Made by a program: the position numbers and the translations under genes. Positions 2,330-62,557 of a stretch of DNA of 64,000 nt are shown one piece after another; the stretch's first letter is position 1, and each line of letters starts with the position of its first letter. The notes beneath the pieces are model-generated. The model was not told the DNA's origin. It worked only from the letters and a program-made list of their open reading frames with translations, and did no database searches. The DNA comes from Microvelia longipes (taxonomy: Eukaryota > Arthropoda > Insecta > Hemiptera > Veliidae), in the NCBI GenBank assembly GCA_018340805.1, contig JACMZG010001914.1, forward strand, positions 44,237,407-44,301,406, in the 5' to 3' direction.

Positions 2330-3717
2330 CAATAATGATCAAATATTGTATTGTCTAAAAACTGTGTCCTAAATTTAACCAACACTTTAAGCATTTAGTT
2401 GTCCACAACTTGCTTATACAGACTCTCCTATAAACTAATCTCTGAAGGTGAAGGTCCGTCAAAAAAATTTTATTAAATTATTATGAGAGAGCTGTTGTGG
2501 TTTGTAACCCAGATAGCTTTGTGCTGTAGAATTTCATGACGCAGCATCTATTTTATAGCTTCCTCTCAGCAAACCTCTCTCCTGATTGTCTCTGGTCCTA
2601 GTTTTATTCTCCTTCTATGGTAGCTGGTGATAGTTCTGTTTTTCTTAACTTGTTCCTATCCATACTGTCGACTAAAGTATATAACTGCTGAACTAATTTT
2701 AGGTGAGAAAGTAGCATTTCCCAGATCGGTTGGTACTTAGTCATGAATTACAGCACTTTACCTGCCTAGGCAGGGAAGTAGCATTTCCCAGCCGCCCCTG
2801 TCTATGTTGGTAAAGAAAGTTAATAGATAATTTTTGTAAACATGATTAGTTAATAATAAAAAGCCTATTGAATTGATTTAATAATTTATATAATGAATAT
2901 TTACATTATTTAACTAACTAAAATTAAAATAAAACAATTTGTAATGTAAATCTTTAATTAGAAATAAGTTTTATTGATATTGAAGGCAACACTTTTTGTC
3001 TTGGGTTTATTATCTCATCTTTTTTTGTCATGTCATTTACTACTTTTATTATACGAACCCGTATTTAATCCAGTTTAAAAGTTAGCGTTTTGTGATGACG
3101 AACTTTTCGAAAATACCCCGCCGGATGTTTTGGAAATAGCTACAAGTGCCAAAGAGAGCCTACTACCCGGCAATTTGTTAACTCGTCTCTGTAATTTTGT
3201 ACCTATATTAATTAATTTTTTGCTTAAAATAAATAAAAATAACGTTTTTTTAAATAATAAATAAATAATTTCATTATTAGCATTAGCCAGCTGCAAAATA
3301 AGAAGTCCCACGAAAATATTAGTTATAATAAAACTAAAAAAACGTTTCCTTTGTTCTAAAAAGAAATAAAATAAATAATAGATTAAGACAGTAGAAGGAA
3401 TAAAACTTAATCAAAGAAGGGAAAAAATTTAATTTGATACTATAAAAGAAATTTATATTGAAAGAAAAATTATAATGATGGGGAATAATTTTCTGCTTTA
3501 TTATTTTTCTGTCCCCTGGTTATCTTATAATAAATATTTTATTTATTTATATTTTATTATCTTATTATAAATATTTGAACATTATACTTGATGAAAGTCA
3601 TTAGTTGAAAATCCTTGTTGTTAGCGTTGTCTTTTGTATTTTGTCCTTTGGAGATCTAGAGTTCGTGTCCTTGGTTAGGCTTTCAGTTGCTACAGAGTAT
3701 TATTTTAATACATGTAT
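2330..3717. other. AT-rich DNA with no recognised gene
   Basis: No gene or known repeat was recognised. Two short boxes containing AGTAGCATTTCCCAG recur at about 2711 and 2776, 65 bases apart. This is a minor local duplication. Confidence 0.45.
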
Positions 3718-4285
3718 TAGACCAAGAGCCCAGGGGTGTTTTGTTAATAAAAAGTGTAATGGCTGGAACCGGTCTCATTTTTTCGTAAATACCTTCCTGA
3801 ACAAGGATCTGCAATTCTGCCGACTCGTATCGGATGGGTGTCCCAGGCAGAACGCACTTTACATGTCAAATTTACCACCGAAGTTAATAAAAAGTGCAAT
3901 GACTGGAAACGGGTTTAATTTTTCGTAAATACCTTCCTGAACAAGGATCTGCAATTCTGCCGACTCGTATCTGATGGCGTCCCAGTCAGAACGCACTTTA
4001 CATGTCAAATTTACACCCAAGTTAACAAACAGTTTAATGGCTGGAACCGGTCTCAATTTTTTGTAAATACCTTCCTTAACAAGGATCTGCAATTCTGCCG
4101 ACTCGTATCGGATGGGTGTCCCAGGCAGAACCTTTGACACCTAAAGTGCGTTCTGCCTTGGACACCTATCCGATACGAGTCGGCAGAATGGCAGATCCTT
4201 GTTCAGGAAGGTATTTACGAAAAATTGAGACCGGTTCCAGCCATTACACTTTTTATTAACAAAATACCCCTGGGCTCTTGGACTA
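3718..4285. mobile_element. Fold-back DNA transposon (MITE family M1), copy 1, internally duplicated
   Basis: The ends are TAGACCAAGAGCCCAGGGGT and, inverted, CCCTGGGCTCTTGGACTA. The two halves are reverse complements of each other through the GTATTTACGAAAAATTGAG and GGTGTCCCAGGCAGAAC segments. A 3-bp direct repeat TAT lies immediately outside (3715-3717 and 4286-4288). This copy is longer than its relatives because the left half is repeated about three times: the box AAATACCTTCCTGAACAAGG recurs at about 3787, 3927 and, with one change, 4065. It has no transposase. Short open frames such as 3605-3928 and 3859-4140 only read the repeat and are not genes. Confidence 0.85.
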
Positions 4286-5182
4286 TATGGCCAGACTTTC
4301 TTTAATACTTAGGTTGACAGTTGCCTCCTTTCTGCACCAGTTACGCCGATATGGCCCATAAATTTGAAATAGGTATTATTGTTATCATCATTCCTTCCAC
4401 TAATTCTCATACATAGGGCTGGTAGATATATTTAGTAGGGGTGGGATCTATTTCCCTAGGACTGTGTCATGTCAAATGTTGCATTTTCTTGCTGACAACA
4501 TTGTCGAGGACATTTTGTCGTTTAATTCTTTTAGAAAAATGTCCTCATTAGATGGGTCATTGTATTAAAATTACTGTGCAAGAAATCAAAACCTTATCGA
4601 GGACTAATTTTATGAATGGGTAAAAATGGTAAGACTTTAAATTTGAAATGTAAGAAAGGGGTTGATAAAGAGGTGAATAGAGAAACGCTGCGAGGGCTAA
4701 ACCTCGCCACAGGGGGGATCCAAAAAGGCTCAACATTTGCATTGCTAATGGAAGAATAAATGGTGCTAATCGCTGCAAGATTTCCACAATAAAGAAGCAG
4801 ATGAAACAAAAAGAGCGTTAAACTTAGAAACAAGATTTTCTTAAGCAACTCCCCGAGAAAATAACATTAAAATTTTTATTGTTAGTGAAACTTCTTTTTC
4901 GAAAATTTCACGTTCTGGTTGAATTTTCTTACGTAACCTTTTACAATAAGGAAGAGTTGTGGTTGGTGGGTTTAAACTTGAAAAACCACTCAGACAAAAG
5001 AGTCTAACACTTAAAATTTAATTACGTAGAAAATCTGTTTTTCTTTTAAAACTTCTTTTGATACAGTTCTAAAAGGTAAGATATATAAAACTCGTATTCT
5101 TACCGTAACAAGTCCATTATTATTTGAAATAATCTTCGTGTAAAATCTAGTAAATTGTTTTTACAATTTTTTTTTAAAAAAC
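4286..5182. other. No recognised feature
   Basis: Unique-looking AT-rich DNA. The short frames on the minus strand at 4557-4848 are hydrophobic and overlap one another in two frames, with no recognisable domain. Confidence 0.4.
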
Positions 5183-6731: not shown

Positions 6732-6866
6732 TCTTCGCTGTAGATGACACAATATAATTGTGCGAGAGACACCAAGGAAATGTAACAAGCAAAATGCAAT
6801 GCTACATCTGGGAACTGTTCTATTATTCGACATAAGTCATCATTGATAGCTCGACATAATGTCCCG

Positions 6867-6907
6867 CTCTGTTTCGTTACGTCTAACTCATCAGGGCACC
6901 GACAAAG
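6867..6907 (-). ncRNA. Hammerhead ribozyme core, H1 copy A, left arm
   Basis: On the minus strand the order is CTTTGT (stem III 5' strand), C (cleavage nucleotide, giving GTC), GGTGCC (stem I), CTGATGA (core), GTTA-GACG-TAAC (stem II with a 4-nt loop), GAA, then ACAGAG (stem III 3' strand). All invariant core bases of a hammerhead are present. Stem III has six pairs including one U-G, and stem II has four. Cleavage is predicted between the complements of 6901 and 6900. The topology is that of a type III hammerhead, as in the tobacco ringspot satellite ribozyme. Stem I is only 6 nt, however, and cannot form a normal hairpin, so pairing with a second molecule is the likelier active form (inference). 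Confidence 0.75.
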
Positions 6908-7238
6908 CCTGAACTCACTCTGAACTTCAATTAAATTCGAAGAATATAATGTGAAGTACTTACCAGAGACGAGCGGTGCTCTCTTACCGCCATCATGCAT
7001 GGCAAGCAAAACATATATCATTTTGATGCTACCGAGTTTTCCAAAATATGAATAGTTGACACAGATTATCGCACAATTATATTGTGTCAACTATTCATGT
7101 TTTGCAAAACTCAAATAGTATCAAAATGATATATGTTTTGCTTGCCATGCATGATGGCGGTAAGAGAGCACCGCTCGTCTCTGGTAGTACTTCACATTAT
7201 ATTCTTCGAAATTAATTGAAGGTCAGAGTGAGTTCAGG

Positions 7239-7279
7239 CTCTTTCGGCGCCCTGATGAGTTAGACGTAACAAAACAGAG
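7239..7279 (+). ncRNA. Degenerate hammerhead core, H1 copy A, right arm
   Basis: Inverted counterpart of the core at 6867-6907. CTGATGA and stem II (GTTA/TAAC) are intact and stem I is the fully self-complementary GGCGCC. Two key positions are changed: the cleavage triplet reads TTC instead of GTC, and the GAAA box reads AAAA (position 7271). This arm is predicted to be inactive. Confidence 0.65.
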
Positions 7280-7460
7280 TGGGACATGACATTATGTCGA
7301 GCTATCAATGATGACGAATGTCGAATGATGGAACAGTTCCCAGATGTAGCATTGCATTTTGCTTGTTACATTTCCTTGGTGTCTCTCGCACAATTATATT
7401 GTGTCAACTATTCATGTTTTGCAAAACTCAGTAATATCAAAATGATATCTTCGCTGTAGA

Positions 7461-7792
7461 CTTTAAAATTTGAAGAAATCTGTTGTATCTTCGTTTATAA
7501 AAATACTTTATTAGGATAACCATGAATCTAGCAATTATTCTTGGATGCTTTTTGCCATACAAATCTCTAGGCATGTAGGTGTACCACTATGCAGTGGCGT
7601 CATTTGTTGGCGCCGGTGCTCAGATTACCTTATGGCATTTCGGGTCATTGCCGACTGAAATAGTTTCTTTTTTTATTTTGTTATAGGAACTATTAGTGAA
7701 CACATCAGAAACAATATAGGTCAAGACCTGCGTGGCTAGAGGAAAGTGCACAGAAAACATCTGTGACTAACGGTCATTTGTCGCTAGCCTTA
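7461..7792. other. No recognised feature
   Basis: Short unique spacer between the H1 element and the second M1 fold-back element. Nothing recognisable was seen. Confidence 0.4.
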
Positions 7793-8091
7793 TAGACTTT
7801 GGTCTAAGCTAGCCCAGGGGTGTTTTGTTCATAAAAAGTGTAATGGCTAAAACCGGTTTCAATTTTTCGTAAATACCTTCCTGAACAAGGATCTGCAATT
7901 CTGCCGACTCGTATCGGATGGGTGTCCCAGGCAGAACCTTTGACCCCTAAAGTGCGTTCTGCCTGGGACACCCATCCGATACGAGTCAGCAGAATTGCAG
8001 ATCCTTGTTCAGGAAGGTATTAACGAAAAATTGAGACCGGTTCCAGCCATTACACTTTTTATTAACAAAACACCCCTGGGCTCTTGGACTA
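7793..8091. mobile_element. Fold-back DNA transposon M1, copy 2
   Basis: A simple two-arm palindrome of about 300 bp. The outer left end is altered (TAGACTTTGGTCTAAGCTAG), but the match to M1 resumes at CCCAGGGGTGTTTTGTT. The right end is CCCCTGGGCTCTTGGACTA. A 3-bp TTA direct repeat flanks it (7790-7792 and 8092-8094). The arms meet at about 7945 around AACCTTTGACCCCTAAAGTG. No coding capacity is present. Confidence 0.85.
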
Positions 8092-8094
8092 TTA

Positions 8095-9829
8095 GCAAGG
8101 CAAACGGGGCCGCAAAAATTGTTCAGCCTCTTATATTTTTTATTATGTATATTTAATTATTCAGCTTTTTAATTTAGAGATATCTCCTATTTAATTTTCT
8201 AAAAATATTTTGGAGGCTTTAAGACAACTATAACCAAGAATGACAGCGGAAATATTTTGGTTTTGAGAAAATTGATAGGTCTGTTAATTAATTAATTATT
8301 GCCTGGTTATACCTGTGATCCCTGTTAAATTTGAAATCGATTTCGTTAGAAAAATAGCCTGTTTCTATAGCTTTATTTAAAATGTAATTCTACTTACAGT
8401 TAATTATTCATTATTTTATTAATTTTTATCATTAAAAGCCAATTCCACTCAATATTTCAGCTTTTTTTAACCATTCAATTTATTGTTTTACATCGGTCTT
8501 ATATTATGATGAAAAGAAATAACACATCAAATTCAACACGCATGGATCATAAACTCAATCATTACGTTTTGAATCCAAAACATCAGTTGAAAAGGAAATT
8601 GAAAATACAGACTCGGAAATGAAACGGTATTGAACTCCCTTTGTCCGCCTCGTGTTATGCAATTGATATGGACATCAAAAACTAAATTTAAGCCCTGTAT
8701 ATGACTTGCTAAAGACTTGGAGGAACTACGTAGTGAATGCAGTAAAACCTATCACTGCGTTAGAATCTACTGGTGTTATTTTATTTTATAATGTTATATT
8801 TATCCGCTTTATATTTGTGTATTTCATTGGAAATACATTATAGCATAGGGGGATAATACATATTTTTGCTGAAAAGAACAAAATGTTTTGTGTTATTTAC
8901 CAACGTACTCTTGTTTTTATTTATTTTTTAGCCTCATGGAGTTATTATTAGACTCGGTTAATTGGGAGAAGTTTCTGACGTTACCACCAATCTCTTAGAG
9001 GAAATTCGAGCTGTACTATAACCCTAGTTTGTTTGCACACAAAATTGAAAATGCAAAAATACCCGGAGGAAAAGGCCCTTGAAAATTCCATTTAAACTTT
9101 TTATAAATCAGATATAACATAGCGAACTTTAAATGCTTTAAATTAAATCTCTTTTATAAAAAATTATTTTCAAATAGAAAGAACCTAATAGGGTTACGGT
9201 GAAATTCAATCGATCTTCGAGGGATTCCGTATCAGAAAAAAAAAACAATCGGAAATACAGCCGTTAATGTTAAAATGGATCCAAGAACGATAAAATATTA
9301 AATATCTTTAATACTTGATATCAAGATTATTCATAGAGTAGTGGATATCTAGAGCATTCCCTTTGTATAGAACTGTATTAAAGGACTCTATTAAGGACAA
9401 AACTTATATAATACACCCCTATTATTCAGGTAGCATATCTAATGTCATTTAAACATCTATGCTAAGTTCGGTCATATCCCAGGTATTTGTAGAGTAGATA
9501 ATAATATAGAGAGAAGCAATTTCTAAAACCCTACGTGACAAACTGTCCCGGTACCCTCTGGTTGTGACCGAGTTTCAACAGATCAGATATTCTCGGGGTA
9601 CCTAGGGGAGTACGGTTGCAATTTAGGAAAATTGCTAAAAACCTTCCCTGATATTACGTACTATACCATGACTTGAGTAGTTTCCATCCTGATACGATTT
9701 GACCTGACCAGACTAGCTTTCACCTCCACTTGTCAATATTCCGAATAAAACAATTCAAATTTATAGGGTTTCCTATTACTCTCGTACAACATTAAAGCTA
9801 CACTTATTGTATTAGATAAGTATAAGAAA
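8095..9829. other. No recognised gene
   Basis: AT-rich sequence without a supported exon, RNA gene or repeat. No open frame above about 60 codons is present. Confidence 0.45.
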
Positions 9830-9920
9830 TTAGATAAGTTGTTGTTGGTTCTTATATCTAACGTGCTGGTTGGAAAATAGTTTTATGACGTCATTACCTG
9901 TCAATAATGTAGGAAATTTA
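9830..9920 (+). repeat. Dispersed repeat RA, short fragment
   Basis: Contains GGAAAATAGTTTTATGACGT and CATTACCTG as at 11010-11040, followed by AATAATGTAGG. Only the central part of RA is present. Confidence 0.5.
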
Positions 9921-10233
9921 TGTGATGTGTCACTTAATTGTTATGATTTTGTCTTGTCATATTTATAAGTTATTATATTTAAGTTATGTAACAAGGAATA
10001 ATATTTTGATGGATTTGAGATTTTGCACGAGTGTAAACAAAACATATATAAAACTTATTAATATATATCATTTGATACTACCGAGTTTTGCAAAACATGA
10101 ATAGTTGACACAATATAATTGTGCGAGAGACGCCTAGGAAATGTAACAAGCAAAAAAGCAACGCTATATCTGGGAACTGTTCCATCATTCGACATTCGTC
10201 ATCATTGATGGCTCGACATAATGTCATGTCCCA

Positions 10234-10274
10234 CTCTGTTTCGTTACGTCTAACTCATCAGAGCACCGACAGAG
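10234..10274 (-). ncRNA. Hammerhead ribozyme core, H1 copy B, left arm
   Basis: On the minus strand: CTCTGT, C, GGTGCT, CTGATGA, GTTA-GACG-TAAC, GAA, ACAGAG. Stem III (CTCTGT/ACAGAG) is six Watson-Crick pairs, stem II is four pairs, the cleavage triplet is GTC, and all core bases are conserved. Stem I is the 6-nt GGTGCT, one base off the self-complementary form. This is the best-preserved core in the window together with 6867-6907. Confidence 0.78.
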
Positions 10275-10309
10275 CCTGAACTCACTGTGTGACTGAAAGT
10301 GAGTTCAGG

Positions 10310-10350
10310 CTCTGTCGGCGCCCTGATGGGTTAGACGTAACGAAACAGAG
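10310..10350 (+). ncRNA. Hammerhead core with one core change, H1 copy B, right arm
   Basis: CTCTGT, C, GGCGCC, CTGATGG, GTTA-GACG-TAAC, GAA, ACAGAG. All stems and the GTC site are intact and stem I is perfectly self-complementary, but the last A of CTGATGA is G (10329). That position is invariant in hammerheads, so activity should be lost or much reduced. Confidence 0.7.
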
Positions 10351-10599
10351 TGGGACATGACATTATGTCGAGCCATCAATGATGACGAATGTCGAATGAT
10401 GGAACAGTTCCCAGAGGTAGCGTTGCTTTTTGCTTGTTACATTTCCTAGGTGTCTCTCGCAGAATTATATTGTGTCAACTTATTAATATGTCTGTACGGC
10501 ATTAAATAACCTAAATACTCACCTCTCAGCTCATCAGTAATGCACCTTATGATATGGTTTGCTTGAAGCAATCAGTGGGGATCGATACAGCTTTGTTTC

Positions 10600-12600: not shown

Positions 12601-12701
12601 ATCAAAAAATGTCCCTAGTTTCATTTCAGTTTCAGCTATAGTTCTTCACTTTGTTTCCAATCATATAAATACGTTTTTTTAATCGATAATCAGAAACATT
12701 A

Positions 12702-13163
12702 TAGATCAAGAGCCCAGGGGTGTTTTGTTAATAAAAAGTGTAATTGCTGAAAACCGGTCTCAATTTTTCGTAAATACCTTCCTGAACAAGGATCTGCAAT
12801 TCTGCAGACTCGTATCTGATGGGTGTCCCAGGCAGAACGCACTTTACAGGTCAAATTTACCACCGAAGTTAATAAAAAGTATAATGGCTGGAAACGGGTT
12901 TAATTTTTCGTAAATACCTTCCTGAACAAGGATCTGCAATTCTGCCGACTCGTATCGGATGGGTGTCCCAGGCAGAACCTTTGACCCCTAAAGTGCTTCT
13001 GCCTGTATACGAATTGGCAGAATTGCAGATCCTTGTTCAGGAAGGTAGTTACAAAAAATTGAGCTTATAATAAAAGGCTATAATAATATAATAATATAAG
13101 GCTTATAATAATATAAGCCATTACACTTTTTTATTAACAAAACACCCCTGGGCTCTTGGTCTA
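12702..13163. mobile_element. Fold-back DNA transposon M1, copy 3, with duplicated left arm
   Basis: Ends TAGATCAAGAGCCCAGGGGT and CCCCTGGGCTCTTGGTCTA, with a 3-bp TTA direct repeat on both sides (12699-12701 and 13164-13166). The left arm is present twice (boxes at about 12769 and 12910), as in copy 1. The right arm is interrupted at about 13065-13120 by short TATAATAATATAA repeats. The frame at 12725-12913 reads the repeat only. Confidence 0.85.
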
Positions 13164-26613: not shown

Positions 26614-27112
26614 ATAAATTATAGAATATAATTGTGCAGAGACACCAAGGAAATGTTAACAAGCAAAATGCAATGCTACATCTGGGAACTGTTCCATCAT
26701 TCGACATTCGTCATACTTGATGGCTCGACATAATGTCATGTCCCACTCTGTTTCGTTACAGCCTGAACTCACTCTGTCCTTCAATTAATTCCGAAGAATA
26801 TACTGTGAAGTACTTACCAGAGACGAGCGGTGCTCTCTTACCGCCATCATGCATGGCAAGCAAAACATATATCATTTTGATACTACCGAGTTCTGCAAAA
26901 CATGAATAGTTGACTCAATATAATTGTGCGAGAGACACCAAGGAAATGTAACAAGCAAAATGCAATGCTACATCTGGGAACTGTTCCATCATTCGACATG
27001 TAGCATTGCATTTTGCTTGTTACATTTCCTTGGTGTCTCTCGCACAATTATATTGTGTCAACTATTCATGTTTTGCAAAACTCGGTATATCAAAATGATA
27101 TAAATTATAGAA
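26614..27112. mobile_element. Hammerhead-family element H1, copy C, with tandem plus inverted units and 13-bp target duplications
   Basis: The 13-mer ATAAATTATAGAA lies at 26614-26626 and 27100-27112, with mismatches immediately outside. Inside, the unit start (AATATAATTGTGC followed by GAGACACCAAGG) occurs twice in the same orientation, at about 26625 and 26917. This gives a head-to-tail repeat of about 291 bp. The second unit then folds back at about 27000 into an inverted partial unit ending ATATCAAAATGAT. The hammerhead is lost: TTTCGTTAC joins directly to AGCCTGAAC at about 26759, removing about 25 nt that hold CTGATGA, stem I and the cleavage site. Confidence 0.82.
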
Positions 27113-41944: not shown

Positions 41945-42009
41945 TCTGCACAAAATCAGAAACAACACTCTTCTTATGTAAGGAACTCCGAACACAAAAT
42001 AAGGTTTTA

Positions 42010-42719
42010 TAGTCCAAGAGCCAGGCCTAAAAAATGTGACTCATTTTGTACTAGTTCTAACTAAATGTTTCTGAATATACCTTAAATTATGAAGGAAAAG
42101 CATAGTCTGCCTATCCAGAGTGGAGCCTTGCCCAGAAATGCGCTCGCTTAAAATATTAGAAAACCGCACTAATTCTAGTTTTTTTTTGCAATAAGTGGTT
42201 CCCTGTGGGTCGGGTGCAAAACATAAACAGAACACTTTTAAAGCTAATATAATTTTCTATAAAACGAGTGTTAATTTGTCAAAATTGGATTACTCCAACT
42301 AAAGTTATGACATTTGTTAAATGGCCAACAAATCCATAAAAAGCCAATAATGTCATCAAAGAAATTCGCTGACTTTGCATAAATTAACGATTTTTTAGGT
42401 GTTTTTGGAAGCGCCATAACTTTAGTTGTAGACATCCGATTTTAATGATTAAACACTCGTTTTATAGAACATTTTATCACCTTTAAAAAATGGTCTCTTT
42501 ATGTTTTGCACCCGACCCACAGCAAACCACTTATTTCATGAAAACTGAAATTTGTGCGGTTTGATAACATTTTGAGCATGCGTAATCATATGAAAGGCTC
42601 CACTCTGGATTGTCAGATTATGTTTTTTTCTTCATAATTTAAGGTACATTTTTAGAAAATTTCGGTTTGAAGTAGTACAAAATGAGTCACATTATTTCAG
42701 GTCCGGATCTCTTGGACTA
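42010..42719. mobile_element. Fold-back DNA transposon M2, 710 bp, with TTA target duplication
   Basis: The left end TAGTCCAAGAGCCAGGCCTA mirrors the right end, which finishes GGTCCGGATCTCTTGGACTA. The arms match almost to the centre (about 330 bp each), sharing ATGTGACTCATTTTGTACTA, ACCTTAAATTATGAAG, TCCAGAGTGGAGCC, GTGGGTCGGGTGCAAAACAT and TTCTATAAAACGAGTGTT. The direct repeat TTA lies at 42007-42009 and 42720-42722. The terminal TAGTCCAAGAG is the same as in family M1, although the interiors are unrelated. There is no transposase. Confidence 0.85.
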
Positions 42720-42949
42720 TTACGTTTTCATCTTATTACTCCTGTATGTGACAGAGGTGAATAACATGTTATGAAGAAGTTAACGATATTATAGCATTCA
42801 AACAGTAGTAATGCCATGAGTGAGAGGCAGCTACGTCACTTGCTCTCTTTTTTGCTGACTCTCTAACATTGACAATAGACGATTAATGTATCTTATGACT
42901 CAATGTATATTGATTATGTGTCTGACAAAAGTATACATACTTTGTGGCT

Positions 42950-43739: not shown

Positions 43740-43870
43740 TATGATTTAGTTTTCTTTGTTCAGAAGGCACTGATGATGAGGGAAAAAGTTGAAAGCAGGC
43801 TCTGACAATAATTCTAATGAGTGGAGAGACCAGAGAGTTTGATAATTACTTAATACTTAACTTACGCTTC
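43740..43870 (+). ncRNA. Degenerate hammerhead-like segment (H4)
   Basis: CTGATGA at 43770-43776 and GAAA at 43791-43794 are separated by 14 nt (TGAGGGAAAAAGTT) in which stem II is poor. It is followed about 40 nt later by GAGTGGAGAGACC, a box also seen in the right arms at 59836-59845 and 62530-62540. The spacing resembles the arms of H2 and H3, so this is probably a single decayed arm. Low support for activity. Confidence 0.35.
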
Positions 43871-44308: not shown

Positions 44309-47300
44309 GGCGTTAAACACTATGATCTGCACCTTTACCGTTGGGCGCTGAACACTATGATCAACACCTTTACACCTGGGCGCTGAGCACTATGTTCAGC
44401 ACCTTAACCGTTGGGCGCTGAAGACTATGATCAACACCTTTACAGCTGGGCGCTGAGCACTATGATCAGACCCTTTACTGCAGAATGTAAACACTATGAT
44501 CAGCACCTTTACAGCTGGACGCTGAGCACTATGATCAGCACCTTTACAGCTGGGTGCTGAGCACCATGATTAGCACCTTTACTGCAGATTGTGAACACTT
44601 TGATCAGCACCTTTACTGCAGAATATGAACACTATGATCAGCACCTTTACTGCAGAATATGAACACTATGATCAGCACCTTTACTGCAGAATGTGAACAC
44701 TATGATCAGCACCTTTACTGCAGAATGTGAACACTATGATCAGCACCTTTACTGCAGAATTGAACACTATGATCAGCACCTTTACTGCAGAATGTGAAAC
44801 ACTATGATCAGCACCTTTACTGCAGAATGTGAACACTATGATCAGCACCTTTACTGCAGAATGTGAACACTATGATCAGCACCTTTACAGCTGGGCGCTG
44901 AACTATGATCAGAACCTTTACTGCAGAATGTGAACACTATGATCAGCACCTTTACTGTAGAATGTGAACACTATGATCAGCACCTTTACTGTAGAATGTG
45001 AACACTATGATCAGCACCTTTACTGCAGAATATGAACACTATGATCAGCACCTTTACTGCAGAATATGAACACTATGATCAGCACCTTTACTGTAGAATG
45101 TGAACACTATGTTCAGCACCTTTACTGTAGAATGTGAACACTATGATCAGCACCTTTACTGTAGAATGTGAACCTATGTTCAGTACCTTTACTGCAGAAT
45201 GTGAACACTATGATCAGCACCTTTACTGCAGAATGTGAACACCTATGATCAGCACCTTTACAGCTGGCGCTGAGCACTATGATCAGAACCTTTACTGCAG
45301 AATGTGAACACTATGAATCAGCACCTTTACTGCAGAATGTGAACATATGATCAGCACCTTTACTGCAGAATGTAACACTATGATCAGCACCTTTACTGCA
45401 GAATATGAACACTATGATCAGCACTTTACTGCAGAATGTGAACACTATGATCAGCACCTTTACTGCAGAATGAAACACTATGATCAGCACCTTTACTGCA
45501 GAAATGTGAACACTATGATAAGCACCTTTACTGCAGAATGTGAACACTATGATCAGCACCTTTGCAGAATGTGAAACACTATGATCACACCTTTACTGCA
45601 GAATATGAACACTATGATCAGCACTTTACTGCAGAATGTGAACACTATGATCAGCACCTTTACTGCACACTATGATCAGTACCTTTACTGCAGAATGTGA
45701 ACACTATGATCAGCACCTTTACTGCAGATCTAGCACCTTTACAGCTGGGCGCTGAGCACTATGATCAGAACCTTTACTGCAGAATGTGAACACTATGATC
45801 AGCACCTTTACTGTAGAATGTGAACACCTATGATCAGCACCTTTACTGTAGAATGTGAAACTATGTTCAGTACCTTTACTGCAGAATGTGAACACTATGA
45901 TCAGCACCTTTACTGCAGAATGTGAACACTATGATCAGCACCTTTACAGCTGGGCGCTGAGCACTATGATCAGAACCTTTACTGGAATGTGAACACTATG
46001 ATCAGCACCTTTACTGTAGAATGTGAACACTATGTTCAGCACCAGAATTGTGATCACACCTTTACTGTAGAATGTGAACACTATGTCAGTACTTTACTGC
46101 AGAATGTGAACATATGATCAGCACCTTTACTGCAGAATGTGAACACTATGACAGCACTTTACAGCTGGGCGCTGAGCACTATGATCAGAACCTTTACTGC
46201 AAATGTGAACACTATGATCAGCACCTTTACTGCAGAATGTGAACACTATGATCAGCACCTTTACTGCAGAATGTGAACACTATGATCAGCACCTTTACTG
46301 CAGAATATGAACACTATGATCAGCACTTTACTGCAGAATGTGAACACTATGATCAGCACCTTTACTGCAGAATGTGAACACTATGATCACACCTTTACTG
46401 CAGAATGTGAAACACTATGATCAGCACCTTTACTGCAGAATTGAACACTATGATCAGCACCTTTACTGCAATGTGAACACTATGATCAGCACCTTTACTG
46501 CAGAATGTGAACACTATGATCAGCACCTTTACTGCAGAATGTGAACACTATGATCAGCACCTTTACTGCAGAATATGAACACTATGATCACACCTTTACT
46601 GCAGAATGTGAACACTATGATCAGCACCTTTACTGCAAGAATGTGAACACTATGATCAGCACCTTTACAGCTGGGCGCTGAGCACTATGATCAGAACCTT
46701 TACTGCAGAATGTGAACACTATGATCAGCACCTTTACTGTAGAATGTGAACACTATGATCAGCACCTTTACTGTAGAATGTGAACACCTATGATCAGCAC
46801 CTTTACTGCAGAATATGAACACTATGATCAGCACCTTTACTGCAGAATGTGAACACTAGCCAGAATGTGAACACTATGTGAACACTATGATCAGCACCTT
46901 TACTGCAGAATAATGAACACTATGATCAGCACCTTTACTGTAGAATGTGACACTATGTTCAGCACCTTTACTGTAGAATGTGAACACTATGATCAGCACC
47001 TTTACTGTAGAATGTGAACACTATGTTCAGTACCTTTACTGCAGAATGTGAACACTATGATCAGCACCTTTACTGCAGAATGTGAACACTATGATCAGCA
47101 CCTTTACAGCTGGGCGCTGAGCACTATGATCAGAACCTTTACTGCAGAATGTGAACACATGATCAGCACCTTTACTGTAGATGTGAACACTATGATCAGC
47201 ACCTTTACTGTAGAATGTGAACACTATGATCAGCACCTTTACTCAGAATATGAAACTATATCAGCACCTTACTGCAGAATATGAACACTATGATCAGCAC

Positions 47301-47416
47301 CTTTACTGTAGAATGTGAACACTATGTTCAGCACCTTTACAGCTGGGCGCTGAACACTATGATCAGCACCTTTACTGTTTGGTGCTGAATACTATGATCA
47401 GTACTTTTACTGTAGA
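44309..47416. repeat. Large minisatellite, 34-bp unit, about 3.1 kb
   Basis: Basic unit GCAGAATGTGAACACTATGA followed by TCAGCACCTTTACT (34 bp), roughly ninety copies. Three main unit types occur: ACTGCAGAATGTG, ACTGTAGAATGTG, and ACAGCTGGGCGCTGAGC. The third type is followed by GATCAGAACC instead of GATCAGCACC nearly every time (around 44884, 45255, 45737, 45944, 46157, 46666 and 47104), so linked variants spread as multi-unit blocks. Units at the left edge (44309-44480) are the most diverged. The open frames on both strands here are consequences of the repeat. Confidence 0.95.
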
Positions 47417-48570
47417 TGGACAATGATATTGTAAATTATACTGAATGGTGTGGTTTAGACATAGACATTGAATCATCATCTTATCATGTTTTTACTTGAT
47501 AATGATTTTCTATTGACTTTTTGACGTTCACAGACTTATTTTCACCCTGTTCAATTTTACTGTCAAAAAATTCAATTTTATTGTCCCTTGCTACAATTTT
47601 TTTAAAATGTCACCAAATTCTGTGAACGTAATATTTGATCCCATGGAATAGATTTTTTGAAGAAGAAGAGCATAACGAAGCATCTAAATATTTTAAAGCG
47701 CCTGAAAAACATCTCAAGCCTCTAAGTCAAATAGAGACCGGAGCTATTTGGGCAATACGTAAAACATTGTCACAGAATACCCTTAAGGGCTAATGAAGTT
47801 TGTAATGTATAAGACATTTGAGACCTCACATGGATTGCAAGTTTTACAGTTGTAAACTATCACAAAGGAGTATTAAATTTACTTTAAACTCTTTTCCCTA
47901 TTTAATGAACGACCTATTGAACAACTTACAGAGTCTTAGTATGCCGCACCTTAAAGGGGGATTTATTCCCACTAAAAGAGGCATTTGCCTCAAACTTTGC
48001 CCAAAATTTTCTTGATATACTACTTACCCCCAGGGGACAACGGGATAAGAAAAGTTTTCGCCTTTAAGTTTTCACTTAGGTCTTCTAAAACTACTTAGCT
48101 ATCGGACTAAGCCAAGGAGACTTCGCGACGGAAATCCTAAAGTACAAGACACTTTATAACCTTCTCTTAAACCTTTTACTGCTCTGTTGATAATGTATTT
48201 TGACTATATAGTTGGCAATGCATTCAAATAAATTAAGTTGAAGAAGTTTTAAAAAAAGCATTGTAAACTTAATTTACCGCATTGGAGAAAAACTAAACCC
48301 AAAACAAATAGCAGGATATCTAAATATGAAGCTAACTTGACCCAGGTTAAATAAATCTTTCTCTAAAAGCTTTTGTTTGTTATAACTGCGTCATTTTCTT
48401 TTACAATAGCTGTAAGGATTTTAATTTTTTGCAAAATTGTATCCAAGGAAGTTATATCGAATTAGAAAAAGAAATCCATTTTTCCATTAATAAATGTCTA
48501 TTTGATTAAAGATACAACTTATAAATTTTATAAAATACATTTTCATAAAAGAATAAATGTTTCCACAAAT
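47417..48570. other. No recognised gene
   Basis: Spacer between the two large arrays. The frame at 47818-48015 shows no recognised domain. Confidence 0.4.
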
Positions 48571-49522
48571 ACAGCGTACAGCTGTATGTAATACACCAAT
48601 ACATCGTACAGCTGTATATAATACACCAATACAGCTTAAAGCTGTATGTAATACACCAATACAGCGTACAGCTGTATGTAATGCACCAATACAACGTACA
48701 GCTGTATGTAATGCACCAATACATCGTACAGTTGTATGTAATACACCAATACATCATACAGTTGTATGTAATACACCAATACAGCGTACAGCTGTATGTA
48801 ATACACCAATACAGCGTCCAGCTGTATGTAATACACCAATACAGCGTACAGCTGTATGTCATCAATACAGCTGTATGTATACACCAATACAGCGTACAGT
48901 CTGTATGTCATACACCAATACAGCGTACAGCTGTATGTAATACACCAATACATCGTACAGCTGTATGTAATACACCAATACAAGCGTACAGCTGTATGTA
49001 CTGTACACCAATACAGCGTACAGCTGTATGTATACACCAATAAGCGATACTGTATGTACAAACACACAATACCAAGCGTACAGCTGTATGTAATACTAAT
49101 ACCCGCGTACAGCTGTATGTAATACATCAATACAGCTACAGCTGTATGTCATACCACCATGTACAGCTGTATGTCATACACCAATACAGCGTACAGCTGT
49201 AATGTCTACACCAATAGCGTCAGCTGTATGTAATACACAATACAGCGTACAGCTGTATGTCATACACCAATACAGGTACAGCTGTATGTAATACCCAATA
49301 CAGCGTACAGCTGTTTGTAATACATCAATACAGCGTACAGCTGTATGTCATACACCAATACAGCGTACAGCTGTATGTCATACACCAATACAGCGTACAG
49401 CTGTATGTCATACACCAATACAGCGTACAGCTGTATGTAATACACCAATACAGCGTACAGCTGTATGTCATACACCAATACAGCGTACAGCTGTATGTAA
49501 TACACCAATACAGCGTACAGCG
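48571..49522. repeat. Minisatellite, 30-bp unit, about 0.95 kb
   Basis: Unit ACAGCGTACAGCTGTATGTA followed by ATACACCAAT, about 31 copies. The palindrome TACAGCTGTA is in every unit. The outer units are regular, and those between about 48860 and 49310 carry many indels. Because the period is a multiple of three, open frames of up to about 160 codons appear in several frames on both strands. None is a credible gene. Confidence 0.95.
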
Positions 49523-50506: not shown

Positions 50507-50799
50507 TTGTAGACCAAGAGCCCAGGGGTGTTTTGTTAATAAAAAGTGTAATGGCTGGAAACGGGTTTAATTTTGTAAATACCTTCCCGAACAAGGATCC
50601 CAATTCTGCCGACTCGTATCGGATGAGTGTCCCAGGCAGAACCTTTGACCCCTAAAGTTTGTTCTACCTGGGACACCCATCCGATACTAGTCGGCAGAAT
50701 TGCAGATCCTTGTACGGAAGGTATTTACGAAAATTGAGACCAGTTTCCAGCCATTACACTTTTTTATTAACAAAACACCCCTGGGCTCTTGGACTATTG
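50507..50799. mobile_element. Fold-back DNA transposon M1, copy 4, with TTG target duplication
   Basis: The element is 50510-50796, from TAGACCAAGAGCCCAGGGGT to CCCCTGGGCTCTTGGACTA, flanked by TTG (50507-50509 and 50797-50799). A simple two-arm palindrome of 287 bp with the arms meeting near 50655. Few changes between arms (for example TTGTAAAT for TTCGTAAAT), so it looks fairly young. No transposase. Confidence 0.88.
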
Positions 50800-54329: not shown

Positions 54330-54600
54330 ACTTCAGGCCATCATCCAGCTGTGTACAAGCCGTTATGCCTTAAGCTAAGCCATCATCCAGCTGATGCCAA
54401 GCCATCATCCAGTTGTCTATAAGCCACCCTAGCTAAACCCAAGCTATCATTCAGCTGATGCCAAGCCATCATCCAGTTGTCTATAATCCACCCTAGCTAA
54501 AGCCAAGCTATCATCCAGCTGATGCCAAGCCATCATCCAGTTGTCTATAATCCACCTAGCTAAAGCCAAGCTATCATTCAGCTGATGCCAAGCCATCATC
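54330..54600. repeat. Minisatellite, 64-bp unit, left block
   Basis: Units of AGCCACCCTAGCTAAACCCA, AGCTATCATCCAGCTGATGC and CAAGCCATCATCCAGTTGTC, ending in TATA. About four units. The block is cut at CATCATC (54600), where the retrotransposon begins. Continued at 58529. Confidence 0.92.
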
Positions 54601-54700
54601 CTGGTGGACTTTGGACTGTGAAACCAATAACAACGAATTTTTTTTTGCTCCGACTTTATTAATTAATTTTACAAGTTTTAATAGGTTTTCAATCTTGAAA

Positions 54701-55642
54701 ATGGCTTTTAAATGCGGAAAATGTGATCCGGAATGCCCGAGTGATGAAAACGAACCAACTATCGAGTGCGATATGTGTCTAAAACGGTTTTATCAGAAGT
54801 GTGCGGAAATTTCGCCTACCGAGTTGGCTTGTTTAAAACTAAAGAAGAAAAGAATCCTGAAATACATTTGTGATATTTGTTGGAATGAAAAATTTGACTC
54901 AAAATCTTCATTTGAAGACATCAAGAACGATTTAAATTTCTTAAAAAGTGAAATGAATAAAATGAATACATGCACCGAGAAGGTAGTATCGGAATTATCT
55001 AAAATCTCAGAAAATCAATTGGACACTACTGCAGTCTTAAAAAATGTAGCGGACACCAATGGAATTATCAATTTTCAACTAAAACAATTGTTAAATAGTG
55101 AAAAAAGTGACAAAAATAATACTTTCGTGCATGATTTCAAATCAAAAAAACAAGTTACTAATGATAGGCCCCCCTTAAATATTAATAAACCAGAAGAAAG
55201 AGCAACCGCAAATATTCCAGAAAAAAATATTGAGGAAAAAGAAGAAGAAGTGACCAGTGTAAACAAAACTAATGTTTTGTTAAGTTCGAATACCGTAAGC
55301 AATAGAAGTGCTACAAGTAAATTATTCGGTACTTCGGATACTACAGAATTGTTAACCGCTGTTAGAAAGAAGACCTTATTCGTGTCTAAATTAGATTTTA
55401 AAACGACTACGACCGAGAAAGTAGAAATGTTTGTCAGATCAAGAATAGTTAAAGACGATAGGCTTAGACGAATCTTAGAAGTGAATAGAATTGATGTTAG
55501 ATCTAATGATTATGCTGCCTTTTCCATAACTGTTCACGAAGAGATTATGAAGTTATTAATAATCCAACATTTGGCCTAGAAGAGTGATGATTAGACCTTT
55601 TCGTTTTTTTCGGAAGAGAAGTCTACCTCAAGATCGATTTTA
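54701..55642 (+). pseudogene. Retrotransposon ORF1 protein (zinc-finger type), frameshifted near its end
   Basis: The first ATG in frame is at 54701. The protein is open for 292 codons to the stop at 55577. Residues 3-60 hold a PHD-like cysteine array (CGKC, ECDMC, then FYQKC, later CDIC); the usual histidine of the PHD H-x2-C pair is absent, Tyr/Gln being found there. Residues about 65-130 are Lys/Glu-rich and probably coiled-coil, followed by a charged linker. Residues about 225-290 (TLFVSKLDF through YAAFSITV) resemble the C-terminal domain common in insect Jockey/CR1 ORF1 proteins. That domain normally ends with a WP-x-G-x-x-RPF motif. Here NIWPRRVMIRPFRFF is present at 55567-55611, but in another frame, so a one-base change near 55560 cut the protein short. 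The likely role in the intact element is RNA binding in the ribonucleoprotein. It precedes ORF2 closely. Confidence 0.85.
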
Positions 55643-55663
55643 GCAGATAATAAAGTAAAAGAT

Positions 55664-58448
55664 GTGAATATTGTAAATAGTTGTAAAAAACAAGTAAGTT
55701 CCTGTAAATATTTAAAGATAATGTACAATAATGCTCAGTGCATAAGAAATAAAATTGACGAAATTGAAGTTATTTCTAACTCAAATGATCTAGATATAAT
55801 TATGACGACGGAACATTGGTTAAAACCTGGTGAGAAGGATCTTTATAATCCAACAAATTTCTCTACTGCTTCCATATTCAACAGAGTTTTAAAGAAAAAT
55901 GGAGGTGCTATGATTTCTGTAAGGAATGGACTAGAATATAGATGTTTAACTAACATTACTAAGTTATCCAAAGAAGGTATTTGTGAAATAGCAGCGGTTG
56001 AACTCCACAACCCTAAAATGATTCTTGTGTGCTTGTATAGACCTCCAGGAAATAACTTCTGTGAGTTCCTTGAGACCATTGACAAACTTTTGCATAAAGT
56101 TAATAATAAAAGGATTCCTATAGCTATTGCAGCTGATTGGAATATAAATTTTTTAGATCATTCTTGTAATAAGTATAATTCACTTGTAAATCTTTTTTCA
56201 TCATATGGATTGACCTTTCTAGTGGAAGAGCCCACAAGAATTGATAAATGTATTGATAATATAGCTGTTAAGATTGACGATATAAATTTATTTACCACTG
56301 AAGTAAAAGACATAGACTTATCCGATCATAGCATAATTAATATTAAATTTTCACTTGTCGCGGAAGAGAGTCAAGTTAACACTACCTATAAGTGCAGACC
56401 TCATACTCAAAAAGGAATAGAGATGCTAAAAAAACAAATTAGTGAGTTTGATTGGTCACAATTATACAATGGTCAACAAGACAGTGATATGTTTAATGCA
56501 TTTTTGAATACACTTAAGAATTTTATGGATAAGTGTTTTCCTGAAAAACTTAAACATGTAAAAAAATGTAAAAGCAGCAAGTGGCTTAGTAATGAACTCA
56601 AAGAGATGAGAGATGAGGTTATATCTATGTATGATTGTTATAAAGACGATAAAATAGTTCTGGCTGGAAAGCATATAAACGCTGAGAAGTAGAATAGGAA
56701 AACCTGAAATTAACTAGGGCCTGTCATAATGCTAAACTTATTGATGAAAGCAATAATCCAACCAAAACTGCTTGGAATATCATAAGAGAGGAAACAGGTA
56801 AAAATAAAATTGACTCTATACATCAAAACTTATTGCCAGATCAATTTAATAATTATTTTATTGACTCAGCCGGTACATATGATGAAAAATAATGATGGGA
56901 TGGATGACTTGACACCAGTTCATAACAGCTGTACTCCTTTTTGGTTTAAACCTGCAACAATAGAAGAAATTAGTAACATCATCAAAAATATGAAAAACTC
57001 AAATTGCAAAGATGTTTATAACATGTCAACTAATTTACTTAAAAAATATCACCCTCATAATTGAACCTCTCACATACTTTAATTAATAAATGCCTTGAGG
57101 AAGGAACTTTTCCCTCGACTTTGAAAGAAACTAAGGTCATTCCTATTCATAAAAAAAGGAAGCAAGGATGATACTTCTAATTAAGACCAATATCAATAAC
57201 ACCAGTTCTGTCGAAAGTTTTAGAAAATATAATGAAAAAACAGTTAGTTGATTACTTGGAAGAAAATAAGCTCATTTCTAACTGCCAGTATGGCTATAGA
57301 AAAGGAAGAAGTACTACCACCGCTGTACTCAAGCTAATTGACTTGGTTATTAAATGCTTAGAACAATGTAAACATGCTAAAATTGACTGCTGTGATTTAT
57401 CCAAAGCCTTTGACCGTGTTCCACATCGGATTCTAATCAGCAAATGAGGAAACTTGGTATTACTGGATCAGCGCTTGACTTTTCAATCATACTTAACAGG
57501 TAGAACTCAGTATGTCCAGTATGGCGATAAAATATCTAGGAAACGGGCGGTACATCTAGGAGTACCCCAGGGATCTATTTTAGGACCAATTTTATTTATT
57601 ATAGCTGTCAATGATGTGGAGAAGTACTTGAAGGAGGTAGTAGGTGCTGAAGATGACGAAGAAATAATATTGTTCTGTGATGATACTAACCTGTGCTGCT
57701 CCGGATCAAACCTGAAAATGTTACAAGAAAGATCATTATTACGTTTACAAACAATAGAAAAATGGTTCATAAAAAATAATTTTATATTAAATAATGATAA
57801 AACTCAATCACTTACGTTCAGTTTAAAAACAGATGTGATGAATCAGCAATTAAAATTTCTTGGGGTTGTACTGGACTCAAAGTTGTCATGGAACCAACAT
57901 ATAGAGATGGTGTGTAAAAAAATATCTACTGGTATATATGTAATAAGCAAACTTAAATTATACTTGCCTGCTAAACATCTTTTAAGTATCTACTACGCCT
58001 TCATCGAGTCTCACTGTTGTTATGGATTGCTGCTATGGGGACATGTCAACACAGAAAGTATTCTGATTTTACAAAAACGTGCTCTGCGCATCATGGAAAG
58101 CTGTGATCAGAGGAGTCTTGTCGGAAGCTGTTCGTCAAGTACAAGATAATGACTATTTCAAATTTGTTTATTTTACAGTCACTTGTCTATGTGAAAAGCA
58201 ATTTTGATAGTTTTGTGAAGAATAATGATAACCATAACTATCCTACAAGATATAATACCAGGTTAGCAATACCAAGGCATAGGCTTAAGAAATCGGAGTG
58301 GAAACTAGTTTTGGGAATAAAGCTTTTTAACCACCTGCCAGAGGAAATTAAAATCTTGAATTTGAAATCGTTCAGTCAAGTAGTAAAGAATTTATTATTG
58401 AAAGAAGTGTTTTATAACGTAAAAGAATATTTAAATTTCAAGTTTTAA
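55664..58448 (+). pseudogene. Retrotransposon ORF2: APE endonuclease and reverse transcriptase, multiply frameshifted
   Basis: The first in-frame ATG is at 55721; the frame is open further upstream, so the true start is uncertain. Endonuclease (55721-56370): MYNNAQCIRNK (Asn), TTEHWL (catalytic Glu), LYRPPG, AADWNINFL (where GDFN is usual), EEPTRID, LSDHS (catalytic His). The frame breaks at about 56690, shifts again at about 56890, meets a stop at 57062, and shifts around 57165 and 57445-57480. Reverse transcriptase (56930-57900): SNCQYGYRKGRSTT (finger), CCDLSKAFDRVPH (motif A), GVPQGSILGPILF (motif B), FCDDTNL (motif C, Cys for the usual Ala), NNDKTQ (motif D), LGVVLDSKLSWNQHI (thumb). A last shift at about 58115 leads into the C-terminal part (58149-58448) with YNTRLAIPRHRLKKSEW and IKLFNHLPEEIK. 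No RNase H domain. All catalytic residues survive, but the breaks abolish expression. Confidence 0.9.
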
Positions 58449-59543: not shown

Positions 59544-59862
59544 CTTAATAAGAGGAAGAAGTCTCTCGCACAAAAATATATTTCTTTTTAGGCAAAGCGC
59601 TTTCAACTAACATGAGGTCATCATCAGTGCTAGCCGTTGAATAAAGAAGGAGGGTGATAGATGAGTCTTACAGATCAATATCAAAGATAGACTTTGATAG
59701 ATATCAAAGAGTCTATCTTTGATATCTGATCTATAAGACTCATCTATCGCCCTCTTCTTTAATTCAACGGCTAGCACTGATGAGACTCTTGTGGTTTGAT
59801 AAGCGCTTTGCTAAAAAAGGAAATATAATTTCTTTGTGAGAGACTTTCCTCATTTTATTAAG
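59544..59862. mobile_element. Inverted hammerhead-like element (family H2)
   Basis: A fold-back segment of about 320 bp with ends CTTAATAAGAGGAA and, inverted, TTCCTCATTTTATTAAG. The arms share GTCTCTCGCACAAAAATATA (inverse GAGAGAC in the right arm), AAGCGCTTT, and CAACGGCTAGCACTGATGA with its inverse. The centre near 59705 is a further palindrome of GATATCAAAG and GTCTATCTTTGATAT. On the minus strand the left arm reads CTGATGA (59621-59627), then 14 nt, then GAAAGCGCTTTGCC (from 59604). This fits the small hammerhead variants with a self-complementary stem III (AGCGCT) known from Penelope-like elements. In the right arm GAAA is changed (GATA). No target duplication found. Confidence 0.6.
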
Positions 59863-62291: not shown

Positions 62292-62557
62292 CTTAATAAA
62301 AAGCATCAGTCTCTCCACAAAATATATTTAAAATAAGCAAACCCGGCTTCAATTAACTCACACAAAGGTCATCTTCAGGCGGTGAGAAGAGAATCCATTG
62401 AGCCTGTGAGTCCTGCTAGTTATGACTGCGAGCAAGGACTCACAATGCTCAATGATTCTCTTGCTCACCGGCCTGAAGATGACCTTTGTGGGTTGAAAAG
62501 CCAGTTTGCTTATTTTAAATATATTTTTGTGGGAGAGACTGATGCTTTTTAATTAAG
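62292..62557. mobile_element. Inverted hammerhead-like element (family H3)
   Basis: A fold-back of about 266 bp with ends CTTAATAAAAAGCATCAGTC and the inverse GACTGATGCTTTTTAATTAAG. The arms share TCTCTCCACAAAATATATTT, AAATAAGCAAAC, CAAAGGTCATCTTCAGGC and the inner GAGAAGAGAATC-type region. The centre (about 62425) has GGACTCACA facing its inverse. In the right arm (plus strand) CTGAAGA (62473-62479), GACCTTTGTGGGTT and GAAA (62495-62498) form a hammerhead-like core. Stem II is GACC/GGTT (one G-U), and a CCGG-type stem III is decayed (AAGCCAGTTTG). In the left arm (minus strand) CTGAAGA is at 62372-62378 and GAAA reads GAAG. CTGAAGATGACC near a GAAA box is characteristic of Penelope-associated hammerhead variants. 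Confidence 0.6.

Follow-up and report, generated by a model that had tools for sequence, protein, structure and literature searches.

A Type III-Ordered Hammerhead with a Self-Complementary Six-Nucleotide Helix I in a Microvelia longipes Repeat Bearing Penelope-Like Insertion Scars

Introduction

Small hammerhead ribozymes of Penelope-like elements (PLEs) are said to cleave as dimers, as Lunse et al. reportedly described in 2017, and the double hammerheads of newt satellite 2 and of avocado sunblotch viroid are similarly attributed to Forster et al. in 1988. Here, we analyze a hammerhead-bearing repeat in a 64,000-nt stretch of the genome of the water strider Microvelia longipes (assembly GCA_018340805.1, contig JACMZG010001914.1, positions 44,237,407 to 44,301,406 of the forward strand), referred to below as the window. 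A first-pass annotation had described the hammerheads and missed their carrier, a tandem and inverted retroelement of ~315 nt with Penelope-like insertion scars.

Several described systems resemble parts of this repeat. In ordinary type III ribozymes, helix I measures 6 bp and helix II 4 bp, the latter capped by a 4-nt loop (PMC7936874), and some animal retrozyme hammerheads, such as those of the axolotl, act better as dimers (PMC7229834). Published PLEs carry inverted pseudo-long terminal repeats (pLTRs), most often head-to-head, one of which may bear a 31-bp tail (PMC3846280). A PLE protein studied in vitro begins reverse transcription at two adjacent internal sites, and both target strands are cut and extended (PMC11167929). 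That PLEs move retrozymes is given as likely in a retrozyme review (PMC7761336).

Our preferred explanation, held with moderate confidence, is that the M. longipes repeat is an animal retrozyme mobilized by PLEs, whose type III-ordered hammerhead would cleave as a dimer with a shared 6-bp helix I, the palindrome GGCGCC replacing the usual hairpin. The genome sequence itself displays the putative ribozyme parts, the copy number, the tandems of monomers, the target-site duplications (TSDs), the fixed pair of ends, and PLEs bearing the same scars.

Results and Discussion

Hammerhead-Bearing Insertions in the Window

One noncoding repeat, with a monomer of ~315 nt, is inserted three times in the window (E1, E2, and E3). 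Each insertion is built from monomer pieces standing head-to-head, and E1 and E3 also contain more than one monomer length head-to-tail. All three are flanked by exact 13-bp duplications. The insertions, their TSDs, and their hammerhead copies are as follows.

6732..6744, E1 target-site duplication, left copy, TCTTCGCTGTAGA
6745..7447, insertion E1, antisense arm at ~6741-7063, head-to-head with a sense arm (7069-7448) that continues into a second monomer; ends at monomer positions 21 and 61
6866..6909 (core ~6867-6907), minus strand, E1 hammerhead keeping all invariant bases, hexamer GGTGCC at 6895-6900
Between 6901 and 6900, minus strand, predicted cleavage point of this E1 hammerhead
7238..7280, plus strand, decayed E1 hammerhead, TTC replacing GTC and AAAA replacing GAAA, GGCGCC at 7246-7251
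7448..7460, E1 target-site duplication, right copy
10052..10064, E2 target-site duplication, left copy, AACTTATTAATAT
10065..10476, insertion E2, head-to-head arms with the center at ~10286-10298; ends at monomer positions 62 and 20
10233..10276 (core ~10234-10274), minus strand, E2 hammerhead keeping all invariant bases, hexamer GGTGCT at 10262-10267
10308..10352, plus strand, decayed E2 hammerhead with CTGATGG (A9 changed), GGCGCC at 10317-10322
10477..10489, E2 target-site duplication, right copy
26614..26626, E3 target-site duplication, left copy, ATAAATTATAGAA
26627..27099, insertion E3, antisense unit and partial second unit head-to-head with a sense arm; ends at monomer positions 13 and 60; ribozyme core lost through a 25-nt deletion
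27100..27112, E3 target-site duplication, right copy

In transcript order, both minus-strand cores consist of a stem III strand, GUC, 6 nt, CUGAUGA, stem II, GAAA, and the other stem III strand. With GUH, CUGANGA, and GAAA in this arrangement, they have the core and the order of a type III hammerhead. Stem II is 4 bp long (GTTA-GACG-TAAC, loop GACG) and stem III 6–7 bp. No helix I hairpin was found within one molecule, as only 6 nt separate GUC from CUGAUGA. The first-pass annotation had recognized the type III order, which in fact holds beyond the window for the whole family, and it had rightly stated that the two cores (minus strand, 6867-6907 and 10234-10274) keep every invariant base. Its sequences for the loop and for stem III are accurate in part. 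GGTGCC is present at 6867-6907 and GGCGCC in the plus-strand arms, but the core at 10234-10274 has GGTGCT; a stem III of 6–7 bp exists in both minus-strand cores, but at 6867-6907 it reads CTTTGT/ACAGAG, with one G-U pair, instead of CTCTGT/ACAGAG.

A covariance model search of the window, which the same annotation had called for, recovered both minus-strand cores below the gathering score: Rfam Hammerhead_3 (RF00008) matches them with 33.3 and 32.7 bits (E 0.0027 and 0.0039, respectively), and the score rises to at most 37.0 bits for consensus copies at other places in the genome.

Two other interpretations were rejected. For a type I reading of the monomer (GAAA with GTC downstream and a 3-bp stem III), inspection of the sequence revealed no matching stem I strand. 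The Rfam microRNA matches of the foldbacks are below gathering scores and reflect long inverted repeats.

Distribution of the Repeat in the Genome

We searched the source genome (664.6 Mb in 1470 contigs) with a 28-nt core pattern comprising CUGAUGA, stem II, GAAA, and the 3′ strand of stem III, allowing at most three mismatches. It gave 9141 matches, against 0 for the reversed control. The exact sequence TCTGTC-GGCGCC-CTGATGA was found 4433 times; in the same frame, GGTGCC occurs 226 times, GGCACC 214 times, and AGCGCT 19 times. Spacers of exactly 6 nt and of 7–17 nt were counted. The latter, combined with a somewhat longer pattern (longer 3′ part), gave 96 matches, in most of which GGCGCC is accompanied by a small insertion or duplication. 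Judging from these 4433 and 96 sites, a 6-nt helix I is therefore the rule in the family, as is its self-complementarity, already pointed out from the window, the consensus being GGCGCC.

This hexamer is the commonest one both in aligned copies (63 of 95) and in ungapped copies (131 of 187). The ungapped set, limited to nine mismatches in 46, leaves out E2 (locus L010) and derives for about half from places chosen by their exact core, which inflates its count of intact cores (164 of 187). When copies were chosen without regard to the core, 73 of 95 had it intact. The consensus monomer, derived from 158 aligned pieces, is 315 nt long with 42.2% GC. It has no reading frame longer than 43 amino acids and hence lacks the frame with reverse transcriptase and GIY-YIG domains of an autonomous PLE. 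Monomers stand both head-to-tail and head-to-head, and arrays in the same direction reach at least nine monomers.

Seven of the 19 AGCGCT sites lie at places of one repeated diverged foldback (L058, L059, and near C518:13108591, C518:51160110, C565:46071655, C1361:45597326, and C564:41678266), which share the same 82% identity to E2 over the same range. L058 and L059, the two of them that were read, have damaged cores. These seven places look like one diverged foldback copied as DNA. At G000:C518:43674190-43674224, a single copy carries a perfect hairpin, CCTAAACTGTTTAGG, between GTC and the core, two bases off a proper helix I. In viral contigs, the pattern GTCGGYGCYCTGATGA gave nine matches (seven identical, one close relative, and one unrelated). 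None shows stem III pairing by eye, and we took them as chance; more specific patterns gave 0 matches in viral contigs and in one prokaryote scan.

Insertion Ends and Target-Site Duplications

For the survey of ends, a similarity search was run with E2, scoring 40 of 3277 candidates. L010-L039 resemble E2 and were found by that likeness, so that their ends are not independent of E2, and L040-L056 were matched by one arm only. Loci that duplicate another one on the opposite strand (L015, L017, L019, L023, L024, L027, L029, L031, and L033-L039) were left out of the counts, and L010 (E2 itself) out of the survey. The sampled loci yielded 40 clusters, four of which were cut by the locus end, leaving 36 resolved.

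TSDs of at least 9 bp (9–14 bp) flank 18 of the 36 resolved clusters, compared with ~5% expected by chance; random segment pairs of the same size from the window share a 9-mer or longer in 5.0% and a 13-mer or longer in 2.7%, both figures being inflated by tandem repeats. All 18 have outward-facing ends, one at monomer position 13–23 (mode 21) and the other at 59–64, ~41 nt apart, the short end being the left-hand one in ten. Among L040-L056, the eight insertions with such a TSD all show this pair of a short and a long end. About the same pair was found without a clear TSD in six further clusters (L016, L020, L025, L030, L032, and L044). Head-to-head inverted ends, a tail of ~41 nt on one of them, and a TSD occur together in all 18 TSD-bearing insertions, as expected of insertion by PLE machinery (tail of 30–40 nt). 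We consider the mobile element and its insertion scars well supported.

Long inverted repeats and tandem arrays are also what foldback DNA transposons or miniature inverted-repeat transposable elements would leave, the tandem copies arising by satellite expansion. This origin is very improbable: the ends lie at two different monomer positions (~21 and ~62) and not at one inverted terminus shared by both sides, the center varies, the TSDs range from 9 to 14 bp, and the PLEs of the same genome have the same layout.

The two arms of an insertion frequently share substitutions: of 14 eligible insertions, 8 have a substitution that all copies in both arms carry, such as 197G>T in the four L046 copies and 33T>G in the four L048 copies, neither of which was found in the others of the 18 loci compared. 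Four of the eight (L032, L046, L048, and L055) have one such substitution that is absent from the other 17 loci, and the remaining four only substitutions that occur in two to five loci. A single circular RNA read repeatedly would account for these arm-shared substitutions, and so would a number of RNAs from the same source locus. We rejected the view that every insertion shows a clean single-template signature, L021, L053, L056, and L148 being mixed.

Private substitutions common to both arms would also fit self-priming or template switching on one cDNA, in place of reverse transcription on two strands, and self-priming on an antisense template has been proposed for the inverted repeats of PLEs (PMC3846280). 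We regard this route as unlikely, since the ends lie at fixed and different internal positions in the 18 insertions with clear TSDs and a PLE protein reportedly acts on both strands, cutting and extending them (PMC11167929).

Penelope-Like Elements in the Same Genome

The GIY-YIG domain has at least 63 matches in the genome, 150 of 842 candidates having been scored, and at one locus RVT_1 and GIY-YIG are encoded in a single frame. The closest relatives of this PLE frame are at 51%; the named ones are mostly from insects (e.g., Neodiprion, 39%), with some from sea urchin, crab, and sponge. A PDB search with the frame gave no match. The GIY-YIG loci contain hammerhead motifs that we take to be of the small PLE type. 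Among 20 PLE loci, we found six foldbacks with a hammerhead motif in both arms. In five of these, one end is 30–40 nt longer than the other and a repeat of 11–13 bp flanks the element; the sixth lies in an AT repeat. As the ~315-nt repeat has the same scar, with a tail of ~41 nt, we infer that PLE proteins insert it. The fixed pair of short and long ends, found in the repeat and in the PLEs of one genome, makes both PLE mobilization and a two-strand insertion model testable.

The window has foldbacks with PLE-type hammerhead motifs at 59544-59862 (~59601, minus strand) and 62292-62557 (~62454, plus strand), laid out like PLE ends elsewhere in the genome. They probably represent old PLE ends, and neither has a clear duplication at its flanks. 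A PLE-like core motif (CTGATGATGAGG...GAAA) followed by GTGGAGAGAC is present at 43770-43830. GTGGAGAGAC recurs close to the PLE hammerhead motifs of L076-L078, and the ~315-nt repeat has it in the form TTGTGCGAGAGAC on its antisense strand, near one insertion end.

A Proposed Hammerhead Shared between Two Molecules

A lone molecule could form at most one pair of helix I, closing a GCGC loop, at a computed -5.6 kcal/mol versus -7.8 kcal/mol without helix I. In a dimer with swapped partners, the pairing is nested: the molecules share a 6-bp helix I, exchange strands in both stem III helices, and each keep a stem II hairpin. Its computed energy is -31.1 kcal/mol, compared with 2 × -7.8 kcal/mol for hammerhead monomers without helix I. 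Such a dimer would restore the helix I and helix II sizes of ordinary type III ribozymes, which we count in its favor. The computed energies permit a hammerhead dimer and do not single it out.

Variation in the hexamer bears on the same question. GGTGCC and GGCACC are the two CpG-decay products of GGCGCC; the former self-pairs with six pairs (including G-U), the latter with four, two pairs being broken. Among the first 100 listed of the 226 GGTGCC and 214 GGCACC sites, five insertions have at least two copies of GGTGCC within 700 bp and none has two of GGCACC (p = 0.025), the neighboring copies having been chosen by eye from the listings. A variant repeated within one insertion was probably on the inserted RNA, a hint at better mobility of self-pairing variants. 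Only the hexamer, and no other stem, shows double changes of the compensatory kind, each preserving the palindrome (AGCGCT, GACGTC, and GGTACC). The intermolecular 6-bp stem I proposed in the first-pass annotation stands as a nested dimer that is computed as stable, but neither the bulk variant counts nor the double changes lend it significant support.

Alternatively, the hammerhead could cleave as a monomer, either with a helix I of one G-C pair closing a GCGC loop or without any, perhaps with the help of a PLE protein. Stem III is long (6–7 bp) and stem II sound, a PLE ribozyme has been reported to cleave only with added protein (PMC11167929), and GGCACC, the weaker self-pairer, is as common in bulk as GGTGCC. 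Monomer cleavage nevertheless appears rather improbable in view of the energy cost of the one-pair helix I given above, of the perfect palindrome formed by the hexamer (expected by chance in an estimated ~2% of cases at this base composition), and of the repeated variants, which are self-pairing in five insertions against none among the first 100 listed of each.

Several observations weigh against a PLE-mobilized retrozyme with a dimeric hammerhead. RNAcofold places another dimer 2.5 kcal/mol lower, the lone hammerhead strand prefers a non-hammerhead fold (-12.0 kcal/mol), and a loopless helix I leaves no obvious partner for the usual contact between loop I and loop II. All Hammerhead_3 scores (33–37 bits) are under the gathering score of 48.5, likely because helix I is missing. 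Genome-wide, the self-pairing hexamer is not in excess (GGTGCC 226 vs. GGCACC 214, p = 0.60). As the two are equally common, most copies would decay without constraint, and the bulk comparison is a weak test because dead copies presumably make up the majority. Nor are the hexamer's double changes significant, with four rows of 70 distinct copies against ~1.7 expected in a hand calculation from single-change counts. Contrary to an expectation raised with the initial description, the core does not appear by eye better conserved than the rest of the monomer, as is expected of dead copies, for which the comparison is uninformative. The four mixed insertions named above combine different monomer variants. 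Eighteen of the 36 resolved clusters have no TSD of 9 bp, and 12 of these also lack the end pair (L021, L022, L042, L047, L049, L050, L052, L057, and two each at L058 and L059). The PLE hammerheads are motif matches, and Rfam reported none in L065 and L066, the two PLE loci scanned. Finally, an Anolis PLE inserts in vitro without needing its hammerhead (PMC11167929).

This last result would suit a vestigial ribozyme, with PLE proteins spreading the repeat from read-through transcripts while the hammerhead hitchhikes in it; 22 of the 95 copies sampled lack an intact core. We find this improbable: the consensus across thousands of copies has a complete core, and the substitutions shared between arms in 8 of 14 insertions fit a monomeric circle, which needs cutting to unit length, although the same pattern could come from multiple RNAs of one source locus. 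On the modeled pairing, the dimer with a shared helix I seems the best reading of the hammerhead anatomy.

Proposed Cycle

Cleavage, dimer formation, RNA circles, and the action of PLE proteins in trans are steps that we infer. Head-to-tail copies would be transcribed, and two hammerheads, either neighbors on one transcript or on two transcripts, would pair by GGCGCC/GGCGCC while their stem III strands swap partners. Each core would then cut after GUC to release monomers, which may be closed into circles as in other retrozymes. The PLE protein would nick both target strands ~13 bp apart, and from each of them reverse transcription would be initiated within the RNA, at position ~21 in one case and ~62 in the other, until the two cDNAs meet head-to-head.

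A stricter version of this cycle is conceivable, though we hold it only tentatively and think it somewhat doubtful. The hammerhead would be an obligate two-molecule one, so that cleavage, and hence circles ready for transposition, would occur only when two RNA copies meet via GGCGCC, and the PLE protein would copy the circle from both nicked strands at two fixed starts. Were this true, the element would sense its own RNA level or tandem state, and each insertion scar would record a single circle that had been read twice.

Other Features of the Window

A second family, with a 138-bp unit, also mixes tandem and inverted copies (3710-4286, 7811-8092, 12694-13063, and 50510-50797). It gives subthreshold mir-789 and mir-561 matches, and no hammerhead core pattern was matched at these four sites. 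A 712-bp long inverted repeat with arms ~76% identical lies at 42009-42720, and satellite arrays occupy 44316-47416 (period 34 bp) and 48564-49521 (period 30 bp). Frames of a non-LTR retrotransposon are found at 54560-58149, with RVT_1 above the cut-off and Exo_endo_phos_2 below it; a protein search with the non-LTR frame gave no match.

Comparison with Known Systems

The repeat is close to the animal non-LTR retrozymes, which are noncoding tandem monomers of 150–450 bp with a GC content below 50%, TSDs longer than 4 bp, and one hammerhead per monomer, and it falls within their range for size, GC content, and TSD (PMC7229834). In contrast to the retrozymes of that study, the majority of the resolved insertions here are head-to-head, and half also show a clear TSD together with the fixed end pair. 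Animal non-LTR retrozymes have type I hammerheads, whereas the order here is type III, with a 6-nt helix I (PMC7229834; PMC7761336). If our reading is correct, an animal retrozyme has here a type III ribozyme in place of the customary type I. Type III hammerheads of animals are also known from hepatitis delta virus-like RNAs and dipteran genomes, but with an enlarged helix I, the opposite of what we observe (PMC7936874). With the plant LTR retrozymes, the repeat shares the type III order and a 4-bp stem II with a 4-nt loop; these differ by a 6-bp helix I hairpin with loop contacts, units of ~700 bp, 4-bp TSDs, and LTRs (PMC7761336; PMC7229834; PMC7936874).

Its insertions resemble those of PLEs in the head-to-head ends, the 30- to 40-nt tail on one end, the TSDs, and the internal start of reverse transcription (PMC3846280; PMC11167929). 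Unlike PLEs, the repeat has no protein gene and a ribozyme type of its own. If true, mobilization in this manner would provide genomic evidence that PLEs move retrozymes.

As in the small dimer-cleaving hammerheads of PLEs, one stem is so reduced that two molecules would have to share it, and the context is that of PLEs; in those hammerheads, which are of type I, helix III is reduced, whereas here helix I is reduced, the order is type III, and stem III has 6–7 bp (PMC7761336). Newt satellite 2 and avocado sunblotch viroid likewise form double hammerheads, in which two molecules together complete a stem that would be too weak within either one; that stem is stem III (PMC3088659), whereas in the present repeat it would be stem I. 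The first-pass annotation had singled out stem I as the diminished stem in an arrangement different from the known ones. This agrees with the available passages of the open-license literature searched, which showed no type III hammerhead whose helix I is palindromic or lacks a hairpin, the 2017 paper on dimeric PLE hammerheads being outside that scope. If the dimer is real, stem I sharing, for which we found no precedent in that literature, would be a further way to split a hammerhead between two molecules. By analogy, the ribozyme of this repeat would work in the manner of the newt, axolotl, and PLE hammerheads that act as dimers, except that the two molecules would share stem I and not stem III.

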